DNA of 64,000 bases from an uncultured Flavobacteriaceae bacterium (lineage in GTDB: Bacteria > Bacteroidota > Bacteroidia > Flavobacteriales > Flavobacteriaceae), in contig CANLVG010000011.1 in NCBI GenBank assembly GCA_947494565.1, forward strand, positions 124,001 through 188,000, written 5' to 3'. Below, one piece after another: positions 55,913-62,814 of this stretch (the stretch's first letter is position 1; each line of letters starts with the position of its first letter). The notes below the pieces were generated by a model. That model worked only from the letters and a program-made list of their open reading frames with translations, was not told the DNA's origin and searched no databases. A program made the position numbers and the translations under genes.

Positions 55913-56728
55913 ATGGAAAAATTACCGAAAATTGCCTTGCCTGCAGTTTTTATCTTGATCGCATTGGTCATATTGATTTCAAAATCCGCCGTCACCATCG
56001 GTTCCGGTGAGGCCGGGGTGCTATATAAAACATTCGGAGGTGGTGTGGTAACTGATAAGCCTCCTTTAGGGGAAGGGTTTCATATTGTCGCGCCATGGAA
56101 CAAAGTGTATGTTTACGAGGTAAGACAGCAGGAGCTCTTCGAAAAAATGAAAGTTCTTTCTTCCAACGGACTAGAAATACAAATTGATGCCTCGGCTTGG
56201 TATCAACCGGTTGATGTTGAATTGGGAATTTTGCACCAAAATTTAGGTGAAAATTATCTGGATCGGGTAATAAAACCTGCCATTCGGAGTGCTGCCAGAA
56301 GTGTTGTCGGTCGTTATACGCCCGAGCAATTATACTCCAGTAAACGAGATGCCATTCAAGACGAAATATTCGCCGAGACCAAAAAAATATTGGACAAGCA
56401 GAATGTGCAATTGAATGAGGTCTTGGTTCGCGATGTAACGCTCCCAAATACGATCAAAGAGGCCATTGAGCGTAAACTAAGACAAGAGCAAGAATCATTG
56501 GAATACGAGTTTAGATTGGTAACCGCCAAAAAAGAAGCTGAAAAAGTGACTATTGAAGCGCAGGGTAAGGCAGATGCTAATAGAATTTTGAGCGCGTCCT
56601 TAACCGATAAAATCTTACAGGATAAAGGTATCGACGCAACTTTAAAACTTTCTGAATCACCTAATTCTAAGGTAATCGTTGTAGGAGGTGGAGATGCTGG
56701 ATTGCCAATAATATTAGGAAATAATTAA
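55913..56728 (+). CDS. Prohibitin family (SPFH) protein
   Basis: A 271-residue membrane protein: one N-terminal helix (IALPAVFILIALVILIS), then the SPFH domain (about 28-200, with GEAGVLYKTFGGG, EVRQQELFEKM and VGRYTPEQLYSSKRDAIQDEI) and a coiled-coil segment (EFRLVTAKKEAEKVTIEAQGKADANRI). Such proteins form ring scaffolds around membrane proteases and lipid domains. The C terminus ends GGGDAGLPIILGNN. Co-transcribed with the VWA gene. Confidence 0.9.
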   Translation: MEKLPKIALPAVFILIALVILISKSAVTIGSGEAGVLYKTFGGGVVTDKPPLGEGFHIVAPWNKVYVYEVRQQELFEKMKVLSSNGLEIQIDASAWYQPVDVELGILHQNLGENYLDRVIKPAIRSAARSVVGRYTPEQLYSSKRDAIQDEIFAETKKILDKQNVQLNEVLVRDVTLPNTIKEAIERKLRQEQESLEYEFRLVTAKKEAEKVTIEAQGKADANRILSASLTDKILQDKGIDATLKLSESPNSKVIVVGGGDAGLPIILGNN

Positions 56729-56782
56729 TAGAGTCTAAAGAAAATCATATCAAAAGGTTTTTGTGTGATTTCTAACTTTTCT

Positions 56783-56813
56783 TTTGAAAAATCAAAAATA
56801 CAGTTTACTTTTA
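56783..56813 (+). promoter_or_regulatory. Candidate promoter of the his operon
   Basis: TTTG at 56783-56786 and TACTTTTA at 56806-56813 are separated by 19 bases, the usual spacing of the Bacteroidota -33/-7 elements (one mismatch in TAnnTTTG). Transcription would start about 56818, just before the leader peptide ATG at 56821. Confidence 0.55.
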
Positions 56814-56820
56814 CAACGTA

Positions 56821-56874
56821 ATGAAAAATAAGAATACACATCATCACCTTTCCACTGGCTGTCAAGCGAGGTAA
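56821..56874 (+). CDS. hisL: Histidine leader peptide
   Basis: A 17-codon frame (MKNKNTHHHLSTGCQAR, then TAA) that begins at the predicted transcription start of the his operon. Codons 7-9 are three consecutive His codons (CAT CAT CAC, 56839-56847). It ends 29 bases before the terminator hairpin and 99 bases before hisG. No Shine-Dalgarno-like site is needed in this phylum and none is seen. The sequence is a textbook attenuator leader; the role is inferred. Confidence 0.75.
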   Translation: MKNKNTHHHLSTGCQAR

Positions 56875-56902
56875 AGGTGTATTGTAGTATTACAGCATAT
56901 TT

Positions 56903-56934
56903 AAAACCCGTTTGAGCAATCAAACGGGTTTTTT
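56903..56934 (+). terminator. Attenuator terminator upstream of hisG
   Basis: AAAACCCGTTTG (56903-56914) pairs perfectly with CAAACGGGTTTT (56921-56932) around a 6-base loop, and the 3' arm runs into a T tract. It is 39 bases upstream of hisG. Confidence 0.9.
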
Positions 56935-56973
56935 AATTAGACCATGCGATTGCTTGAATACAAAAGAAAAGAA

Positions 56974-57831
56974 ATGACAAAAATCAGAATTGCCATTCAG
57001 AAATCAGGACGACTGAATGAAGACTCTCTCAGAATCCTTAAGGATTGTGGTATTTCAATCGATAATGGAAAGGATCAACTCAAGGCATCCTCCAGAAACT
57101 TCCCTTTGGAAGTGTTTTATTTGCGAAATGGTGACATCCCTCAATATTTGCGCGATGGAGTAGTGGACATTGCGATTATCGGAGAGAACGTATTGATCGA
57201 AAAGGGTGTTGACATCGAGTTCGTTGAAAAGCTAGGCTTTTCAAAATGTAAGGTCTCCTTGGCCGTACCCAAATCGGTAGCCTATACTTCGGTCAATGAT
57301 TTTGAAGGCAAACGTATTGCAACCAGTTACCCGAATACCGTGCGTAATTATTTAGAGACAAAAGGAGTAAAAGCAGAATTGCATATCATCAATGGTTCCG
57401 TAGAAATCGCACCGAATATCGGTTTGGCAGATGCGATATGCGATATCGTCTCGAGCGGGAGTACTCTTTTTAAGAACAATTTGAAAGAGGTGGAGGTGAT
57501 GTTGAAGAGCGAGGCTGTGTTGGCCGTTTCGCCCAAAATTTCAGAGGAAAGAAAGGAGATCCTAAAAAAAATACAGTTTCGTATTCAATCGGTTTTAAGG
57601 GCCAGGCAATCGAAATACGTATTGATGAACGTACCCAATCAAAGACTGGACGACATTCTAAAACTATTACCAGGTATGCGCAGCCCTACGGTATTGCCTT
57701 TGGCAGAAGAAGGTTGGAGCTCCGTGCATACGGTTATCAAGCAAGATACCTTTTGGGAAGTTATTGATGAATTGAAAAAGGTAGGTGCAGAAGGAATTCT
57801 AGTGTGCCCTATTGAGAAAATGGTACTCTGA
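56974..57831 (+). CDS. hisG: ATP phosphoribosyltransferase (long form)
   Basis: A 285-residue enzyme that starts histidine synthesis from ATP and PRPP. I use ATG 56974 because KIRIAIQKSGRL is the conserved opening; ATG 56944 would add ten residues and lies nearer to the attenuator terminator. The PRPP-binding region is ADAICDIVSSGSTL near 160. The C-terminal regulatory domain (about 210-285, ending GAEGILVCPIEKMVL) marks the long form, which is usually feedback-inhibited by histidine. Its stop overlaps the next ATG by one base. Confidence 0.95.
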   Translation: MTKIRIAIQKSGRLNEDSLRILKDCGISIDNGKDQLKASSRNFPLEVFYLRNGDIPQYLRDGVVDIAIIGENVLIEKGVDIEFVEKLGFSKCKVSLAVPKSVAYTSVNDFEGKRIATSYPNTVRNYLETKGVKAELHIINGSVEIAPNIGLADAICDIVSSGSTLFKNNLKEVEVMLKSEAVLAVSPKISEERKEILKKIQFRIQSVLRARQSKYVLMNVPNQRLDDILKLLPGMRSPTVLPLAEEGWSSVHTVIKQDTFWEVIDELKKVGAEGILVCPIEKMVL

Positions 57832-58253
57832 TGGACTTTGAGATTCGCCTTATCGAAAAAGAGGAAATGGAGGTGATTATTCCTCTGCTACAGCAATTGA
57901 ACCCCTCAATTTCATATGAAATACTAAAGAAACGACTTCAACAGATGTTGCTTCAGAACTATCAATGCGTCGGCGCCTACCACGGCGTCAGATTAGTAGG
58001 GATTTCAGGTATTTGGATGCTGACCAAGTATTATGTCGGCAAGCACCTTGAGCCTGATAATGTGTTCGTTTTGCCCGAATATCAAGGCAAAGGCGTAGGA
58101 CAACAACTGTTCGACTGGATTTTTGGCTATGCCAAATCAAAAGGATGTACCGCTTCTGAACTGAACTGTTATACAAGTAACGAGACGGGACAGCGGTTTT
58201 GGGAGAAACAAGGATATGAATTGGTAGCATATCACTATCAAAAAAAACTATAG
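57831..58253 (+). CDS. GNAT family acetyltransferase between hisG and hisD
   Basis: A 140-residue acetyltransferase. Motif A is seen in NVFVLPEYQGKGVGQQLFDWIFGYAKSKG with the acetyl-CoA pyrophosphate loop Q/R-x-x-G-x-G/A. The C-terminal NETGQRFWEKQGYELVAYHY fits motif B. The ATG shares a base with the hisG TGA, and only one base lies before hisD, so it is translated as part of the operon. Substrate unknown; relatives modify amino acids, peptides or proteins. Confidence 0.87.
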   Translation: MDFEIRLIEKEEMEVIIPLLQQLNPSISYEILKKRLQQMLLQNYQCVGAYHGVRLVGISGIWMLTKYYVGKHLEPDNVFVLPEYQGKGVGQQLFDWIFGYAKSKGCTASELNCYTSNETGQRFWEKQGYELVAYHYQKKL

Positions 58254-62388: not shown

Positions 62389-62814
62389 ATGGACTATCGC
62401 ATATCGACCGACAAATCGGCATTGAACCTGCAATTCATTTATGACTATATGATCAATACCTCGTATTGGGGCAAGGGGCGTACTTTGGAACAAACTGAAC
62501 GGACTATCGAAAATTCATACTGTTTTGGCATGTATACCCTGTCCAATGAGCAAATCGGTTTTGCTCGAGTAGTGACCGATTTTGTTTTTTTCGGTAATAT
62601 TATGGATGTCTTTATTGCTCCGGAGTATCAAGGAAAAGGTTTGGGCAAGGCATTGATAGGGCATATGTTGGAAGACAGGATGTTGAACGAATTGCAGACC
62701 TTGACCCTTAAGACAAAAGATGCACATGCGCTTTATGGACGATATGGATTCAAAAAAATCGGCGACTCGGCCTTGTATATGGCAAGAGACCTTCAAAAAC
62801 TAGACGGATTATGA
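62389..62814 (+). CDS. GNAT family acetyltransferase between hisH and hisA
   Basis: A 141-residue acetyltransferase distinct from the one at 57831. Motif A is [36 protein letters not shown] precedes it, and [17 protein letters not shown] is the typical C-terminal block. It starts one base after hisH and overlaps hisA by four bases (ATGA), so it is within the operon. Substrate unknown. Confidence 0.88.

Follow-up and report, generated by a model that had tools for sequence, protein, structure and literature searches.

The region upstream of hisG in this DNA, from an uncultured Flavobacteriaceae bacterium, raises the question of whether transcription of the histidine operon is set by a ribosome translating a short leader. 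In the window, as we call the whole stretch of 64,000 nucleotides that was analysed, hisG is followed by a GNAT gene, hisD, hisC, hisB, hisH, a second GNAT gene and hisA, names that were assigned from Pfam matches and gene order. To judge by the sequence and its relatives, the hisG start listed in Table 1 is likelier than the one at the head of the longest frame. Upstream of hisG lie, in this order, promoter-like elements, a short histidine-rich ORF, two alternative RNA pairings and an intrinsic terminator. Judged from the sequence, we consider it about 90% probable that this element is a ribosome-mediated transcription attenuator of the his/trp type.

Table 1. Features of the his leader region, numbered from the first letter of the window
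Feature	Position	Strand	Remarks
-33 element, TTTG	56783-56786	+	Bacteroidota sigma-A promoter
-7 element, TACTTTTA (TAnnTTTG type)	56806-56813	+	19-nt spacer from TTTG; 7 nt before leader ATG
Predicted transcription start	56818	+	4-nt spacing known for promoter class
Leader ORF, MKNKNTHHHLSTGCQAR-stop	ATG 56821 to TAA 56872-56874	+	17 codons
Predicted regulatory codons, His-His-His (CAT CAT CAC)	56839-56847	+	Codons 7-9
First hairpin (pause or protector), 5' arm CACCTTT	56845-56851	+	Holds third His codon
First hairpin, 3' arm AAAGGTG	56873-56879	+	
Antiterminator 5' strand, TCAAGCG	56862-56868	+	Last leader codons
CGTTTGA, common to antiterminator and terminator 5' arm	56909-56915	+	
Extended antiterminator, inner part	56870-56908	+	GGT:ACC and nested hairpin 56875-56902; modest support
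Intrinsic terminator	56903-56935	+	13-bp stem 56903-56915:56920-56932; loop GCAA; T-tract to 56935
hisG, first gene of his operon	56974-57831	+	PF01634, PF08029; longest frame from 56944

The leader and its promoter

A single scan for hisG relatives found at least 477, of which the best 80 were used. Among the matches listed, the closest came from Kriegella, Maribacter and uncultured Flavobacteriaceae, with Zobellia, Arenibacter and Allomuricauda further down. A sequence-only reading of this locus had proposed three consecutive His codons and a search for similar frames in relatives. The codons are present, consecutive codons in a short leader ORF for the very amino acid that the operon makes, and the search agreed with the proposal: the leader was kept in all 80 of the best 80 relatives, three of which end at an earlier stop, and its His codons form, or lie close to, a run of two to four. 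In 78 of these relatives a short ORF upstream of hisG contains HHH or no fewer than four His, and the other two had the same leader with YHH (L052) or HQHH (L076). For alignment we used 80 rows, the window and 79 of the best 80 relatives, leaving out L076 because the 3' arm of its terminator is off pattern. The His run is three codons long in 60 of these rows, four in 19 and two in one; it begins at codon 7 in 78 rows and is written with 234 CAT and 24 CAC codons.

The spaced -33/-7 pair of the earlier reading was found where it had been placed, and the -7 box is of the Bacteroidota type, with TACTTTTA an imperfect match to TAnnTTTG. Across the 80 aligned promoters the first two bases of the -33 site are invariant T, the third is T in 76 and the fourth is G in only 27. 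In 79 of the 80 rows the leader ATG follows the end of a TAnnTT[TC][GA] box after 7 or 8 nt, and in the remaining one after 2 nt. We placed the transcription start at 56818 because a 4-nt spacing between box and start has been published for this promoter class. Taking the box as a consensus match, it lies so near the start codon that the predicted 5' UTR would be shorter than about 5 nt. The leader had been thought to begin at the transcription start itself; the near-leaderless arrangement stands, but the ATG lies about 3 nt after the predicted start and not on it. That reading also expected no start downstream of 56821, and the predicted one is upstream. As a rough background, which includes spurious ORFs, 2 of the 68 ORFs of at least 120 codons in the 64-kb window have such a box 4-9 nt upstream. 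The sigma-70 scan of the consensus scanner does not cover this type of promoter.

In the transcript map of F. psychrophilum the box lies at -12 to -5 (PMC9723704), and a box-to-start spacing of 4-5 nt has been reported (PMC6847099). Short 5' UTRs are uncommon in the published maps: leaderless mRNAs make up 5.5% in F. psychrophilum (PMC9723704), 5' UTRs of 10 nt or less 13% in F. johnsoniae (PMC6847099) and those below 10 nt about 3.7% in Bacteroides thetaiotaomicron (PMC7366714).

Alternative pairings and their folding order

The 123-nt leader folds with a free energy of -39.2 kcal/mol (z = -7.14) and none of 200 shuffles was as good, so that the folding check proposed earlier gave a structure far beyond chance. 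The hairpin that was said to include a His codon is present, CACCTTT pairing with AAAGGTG. It may be an RNA polymerase pause signal, or it may only protect the antiterminator strand. We scored it on an alignment of 52 of the 80 aligned rows (A1), hand-picked to thin near-identical ones. Here 89.0% of cells are paired, with 17 double-change cells against 7.8 in shuffles (0/500 as high) and a covariation score above all 500 shuffles. Two of the five measures, the number of pairs with a double change and the number of pair types, did not exceed the shuffles (186/500 and 247/500). When the hairpin was slid by +1 it gave 18 double-change cells but only 48.9% pairing, and the inner top of the hairpin had no covariation on testing.

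The antiterminator was also found as proposed, with the last leader codons, TCAAGCG, pairing with CGTTTGA. Its strand and the CCCGTTTGAG arm are kept in the window and in all 80 of the best 80 relatives, out of at least 477. In the 52 sequences of A1 the closing helix is paired in 99.2% of cells, with one-sided changes and no double change, and is thus conserved and not covarying within the close clade. The compensatory changes that the sequence-only reading had suggested looking for are therefore missing at this distance, although distant lineages do change both strands together, as described below. When the strand-to-arm segment of the window and of the best 80 relatives was folded as single sequences, the antiterminator helix closed in 81/81. 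The extended antiterminator was scored on the 60 distinct sequences among the window and best 80 relatives (A2), where 88.9% of cells are paired compared with 34.9-50.9% when it is slid; its covariation is modest, 13 of 500 shuffles scoring as high.

We ran RNAalifold on the whole leader and on the segment of the antiterminator. It recovered the terminator and the closing helix but neither the first hairpin nor the inner antiterminator, and on the whole leader it added another, weak helix of four pairs. The counts for the first hairpin and the extended antiterminator were made after this, on structures that we set ourselves. The stop-codon region may pair with the bases ahead of the terminator at further positions besides GGT:ACC.

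A terminator before hisG had been described as perfect, and the 13-bp stem with its T-tract bears this description out. It is an intrinsic terminator placed between the leader and the first gene, and its stem is paired in 92.8% of cells in the 52 close sequences of A1. The consensus scanner did not list it, which may reflect a rule that counts the T run as part of the stem.

In keeping with a switch, the antiterminator reaches -16.3 kcal/mol once position 56916 has been made, and the terminator reaches -22.6 kcal/mol only with its 3' arm. As the full antiterminator (-16.8 kcal/mol) is weaker than the terminator, the switch would depend on the order of folding. In a folding series with an assumed ribosome footprint, RNA that is free only downstream from 56860, the state expected while a ribosome sits on the third His codon, folds best as the antiterminator up to 56924 and as the terminator from 56930. 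With this footprint the antiterminator, which excludes the terminator, would be free when a ribosome is stalled on the His codons and covered when it is at the stop.

Occurrence across the phylum and in other operons

We found hisG in 325 of 392 genomes of the phylum. A first sample comprised 751 nt around each of 100 hisG genes, taken from the best listed matches and not at random; one locus (L151), taken from the wrong side of its hisG, was excluded to leave 99. A second sample added 40 loci. We counted as a His ORF any ORF of 8-45 codons within 600 nt upstream of hisG with at least three His in five codons. The first sample had one at 85 of 99 loci (19/20 in the family, 1/1 in the order, 33/33 in the class and 32/45 in the rest of the phylum), against 117 of 3000 first-order shuffled controls (about 4%), and a few of the positives must be chance at that rate. 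L175 was scored as a miss because its His-rich frame does not satisfy the rule. The second sample had a His ORF at only 4 of 40 loci. Sorted by the N-terminal motif of HisG, the ORF is found at 87 of 100 QxxGRL-type and 2 of 39 LP-type loci. Since the second sample is mostly of the LP type, we limit the claim of a His leader to the QxxGRL type; 20 of the LP-type loci were chosen from one family (f18), which limits the independence of the lineages. The LP-type loci L192-L219, L222-L226 and L230 are without a His leader except for L218, and L166, an LP-type locus of the first sample, has a His ORF; these two ORFs may be chance. When runs of every amino acid were counted over 140 loci (L151 included), His was the sole strong excess (89 against 5.6 expected), followed by Ser (73 against 44.2) and Glu (10 against 4.6).

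The very short 5' UTR predicted for the window is not general. At the 85 leader-positive loci of the first sample, measured from the most favourable in-frame start, the nearest box lies within 5 nt at 11, 6-12 nt away at 18 and 13-40 nt away at 35, and no box was found at 21. Even in the same family the distance is mainly 13-40 nt (17 of 19).

By our hairpin rule, one of -9 kcal/mol or better follows the leader at 57 of these 85 loci, with a weak one at 11 and none at 17. We compared the leader end with the terminator 5' arm at the 57 loci and the window, 58 in all. Over the 36 loci with distinct arms, the mean energy of the own pairs is -12.8 kcal/mol; with permuted arms it is -9.4 (sd 0.42), and none of 5000 permutations was as good. 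The pairs include CAAGCG:CGTTTG in most of the family sample, CAGGCG:CGTCTG (L085, L102), GCGCCGG:CCGGCGC (L136, L140, L144), GCGTCGG:CCGACGC (L157) and TGTCGG:CCGACA (L145). At eight of the 58 loci, at least 20 of 100 shuffles match or better the pairing (L085, L088, L099, L116, L146, L154, L169 and L176); at L088 and L099 the hairpin rule chose a longer hairpin that begins inside the expected terminator arm.

L101, from the same family as the window, has a hisG leader with one His codon and keeps both the CAAGCG strand and the terminator, making it a natural candidate for lost histidine sensing.

Two branches have a different layout. In f24 (L137, L138, L139, L143, L173, L174, L178, L179 and L180) the leader is long and His-rich and mostly starts with GTG 3-5 nt after the -7 box (GTG 4 nt after it in L138, L143, L173, L174 and L178). 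At these nine loci we found no intrinsic terminator, and the stretch after the stop is unstructured; its composition, 7.5% G and 24.7% C, resembles that of Rho loading sites. In f3 (L113, L117, L118, L121, L123, L125, L127, L128 and L135) the leaders are His-rich, with no good intrinsic terminator before hisG.

There is a small chance that in the window too the leader stalls ribosomes as we propose, with an output that is mainly translational or Rho-dependent. These branches, which keep the leader without an intrinsic terminator, one of them with a G-poor and unstructured stretch after the stop, would fit such an output, and some attenuators mask the ribosome-binding site instead of terminating (PMC9413887). 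The window, however, has a strong hairpin with a T-tract, the stem is well paired among close relatives and the antiterminator strand is directed at the 5' arm of that very hairpin, all of which argue for intrinsic termination.

Leaders of a similar kind stand before other amino-acid operons of the same genome. Upstream of pheA is a Phe-rich leader, MIKQYFFNGYFFYFFKRGEGLL (L232, 2851-2919, + strand), with a box 8 nt before its ATG. The trp operon (L234, reverse strand) has a Trp-rich leader, MIELRNNTWWWSNSRKLS, with a box 7 nt before the ATG, and the ilvB cluster (L233, reverse strand) a Val/Leu-rich leader, MKINKVVVNVLLIVP, with a box 16 nt away. A hairpin follows in all three. All 20 genomes of relatives that were searched had trpE-like matches, none above the family cut-off. 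A short ORF with at least two Trp in four codons was present at 13 of 13 trp loci (13 genomes, the own genome included), with a box 4-7 nt before it at 10. The pheA gene was found in 14 of the 20 genomes, with a Phe-rich short ORF at 12 of the 14 loci and a strict box 8 nt before the ORF at three. Leader starts 4-8 nt after a -7 box are a recurrent feature of his, trp and, less clearly, phe. An aspartokinase gene of the own genome (L236, contig C6, reverse strand) has a short Thr-rich ORF, MVFYKTDIATFFKTHTSHCYTACTTPLG, just upstream and a box 16 nt away; no clear terminator was seen after this ORF, which is a possible Thr leader. No clear leader was seen at two more aspartokinase regions of the own genome or at its second chorismate-binding region. 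We also considered that the his pairing itself might be a shared module, and rejected this on a search of the own genome, in which the CARGCGAG...CCCGTTTGA pair occurs only at the his locus. As far as the sequences go, it is the architecture that is shared with the other operons and not the his sequence.

The leaders of these operons also bear on whether the his leader encodes a functional small peptide, perhaps metal-binding, that stands before hisG by chance. The peptide is His-rich and ends in QAR in many of the close relatives among the best 80. We had also considered QAR a signal at the peptide level. In three relatives (L015, L025 and L050) CAG has become TAG, and the peptide is three codons shorter, yet the strand TAGGCGAGG can still pair (L025 and L050 are scored as U-G in the pairing count of the closing helix). 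We dropped the QAR idea because of these variants, from which the leader end is held as RNA and not as peptide. The number of His codons varies, the leaders are unlike between lineages outside the His run, and the trp and phe leaders of the same genome carry Trp and Phe, leaving a functional peptide very improbable.

Proposed mechanism and relation to known systems

Two other explanations hardly survive. The hairpin could be the terminator of the upstream Band 7 gene, which ends at 56728 on the same strand as hisG, and the ORF a chance one without regulation; promoter-like elements between that gene and the leader, and the conservation of leader, His run and covarying pairings in relatives, make this scarcely credible. 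In Firmicutes and Actinobacteria his genes are under T-box regulation (PMC9413887), but a T-box sensing uncharged tRNA-His is equally hard to sustain here, as the T-box covariance model matched neither in the 64-kb window at gathering score nor among the 18 rows of a lenient scan of 56730-57000.

Other Rfam families fared no better: none matched the window at gathering score. The comparison with the His_leader model (which we take to be RF00514) that had been suggested gave no match there or in the lenient scan, where the model is absent from the 18 rows at E up to 10. The rows for PyrR, anti-hemB, L10_leader, Trp_leader and others fell below their own gathering scores and were set aside, Trp_leader (16.3 bits) and Phe_leader (15.1 bits) well below. 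The element is thus a his-operon control region described without an Rfam family match in this analysis.

For the attenuator, we infer the start site, translation of the leader, stalling, pausing, termination and the response to histidine as follows. RNA polymerase would start at about 56818, and as the mRNA 5' end would then lie about 3 nt before the leader AUG, a ribosome could load immediately, without Shine-Dalgarno pairing. When charged tRNA-His is ample, the ribosome would reach the stop at 56872 and cover 56862-56868; with the antiterminator strand covered, the terminator (56903-56932) would form before hisG, so that the operon would be off when histidine is plentiful. When charged tRNA-His is scarce, the ribosome would stall at 56839-56847, melt the first hairpin and free 56862-56868. 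This strand would pair with 56909-56915, together with GGT:ACC and the nested hairpin, before the 3' arm of the terminator is made, and transcription would proceed into hisG. In a leader that is not translated, the first hairpin would hide the antiterminator strand and the terminator would be the default.

Should the attenuator function in this way, RNA polymerase and the ribosome would have to keep close time in a phylum that, to our knowledge, lacks Shine-Dalgarno sequences, and transcription-translation coupling in Bacteroidota could be tested directly with one reporter. Genetic work in these bacteria would also gain a natural switch that responds to an amino acid. A wider view, which we hold tentatively and think somewhat likelier to be wrong than right, is that Bacteroidota have attenuators for amino-acid operons throughout the phylum (his, trp and phe, probably ilv, perhaps thr) whose leader often starts at or within a few nt of the mRNA 5' end, the near-leaderless start being selected because the first ribosome then follows RNA polymerase directly, and that some branches have a Rho-type or translational output in place of the intrinsic terminator.

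The his attenuator of E. coli and Salmonella has a hairpin over its His codons. It (hisL) likewise has a His-rich leader peptide, an antiterminator and a terminator before hisG (PMC9413887). The flavobacterial element differs in giving no match to the His_leader model, in its Bacteroidota-type promoter, in a leader ATG that would lie some 3 nt from the 5' end and in using the last leader codons as the antiterminator strand. Bacillota His attenuators also combine a His-run leader with a terminator and an antiterminator; they have been described in a few lineages, compared with 87 of 100 sampled QxxGRL-type hisG of one phylum here (PMC9413887, PMC2965389). Amino-acid-rich leader ORFs are found in other phyla and for other amino acids, as with the leaderless trpL of Sinorhizobium meliloti, whose transcript begins with ATG (PMC7298713), and the Cys-rich upstream ORFs of mycobacteria (PMC4633059).

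Closest to our case is the 2021 transcriptome of F. psychrophilum, which reported strong indications that leader peptides attenuate amino-acid operons, and structured elements 5' of hisG and pheA that had no Rfam matches and occurred in other genera of Flavobacteriaceae (PMC9723704). Its hisG element resembles ours in gene, family, lack of an Rfam match and suggested mechanism; the relevant section of that report sets out neither a sequence nor a pairing scheme, nor any occurrence outside Flavobacteriaceae (PMC9723704). A paper on the his genes of the Bacteroidota superphylum mentions attenuation once in the parts relevant here, for S. enterica and E. coli (PMC8305728), and PMC9413887 covers Gram-positive bacteria. 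A 2010 survey by Lopatovskaya and colleagues, known to us through citing papers, may already list Bacteroidota cases. Ribosome-mediated attenuation is therefore a known kind of control, and both attenuation in Flavobacteriaceae and a structured hisG element had been hinted at (PMC9723704). Beyond what we found in print, in open-licence literature, are the phylum-wide link to QxxGRL-type hisG, the covariation, the extended antiterminator, the near-leaderless starts common to trp and partly phe, and the branches in which no intrinsic terminator was found.

Two small GNAT acetyltransferase genes lie within the his operon (57831-58253 and 62389-62814), and 30 of the best 80 relatives, out of at least 477, have a relative of the first downstream of hisG, with a median identity of about 49%. 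An inverted repeat at 56742-56771 (-6.6 kcal/mol), which lies after the Band 7 gene and ahead of the his promoter, may be the end signal of that upstream gene.
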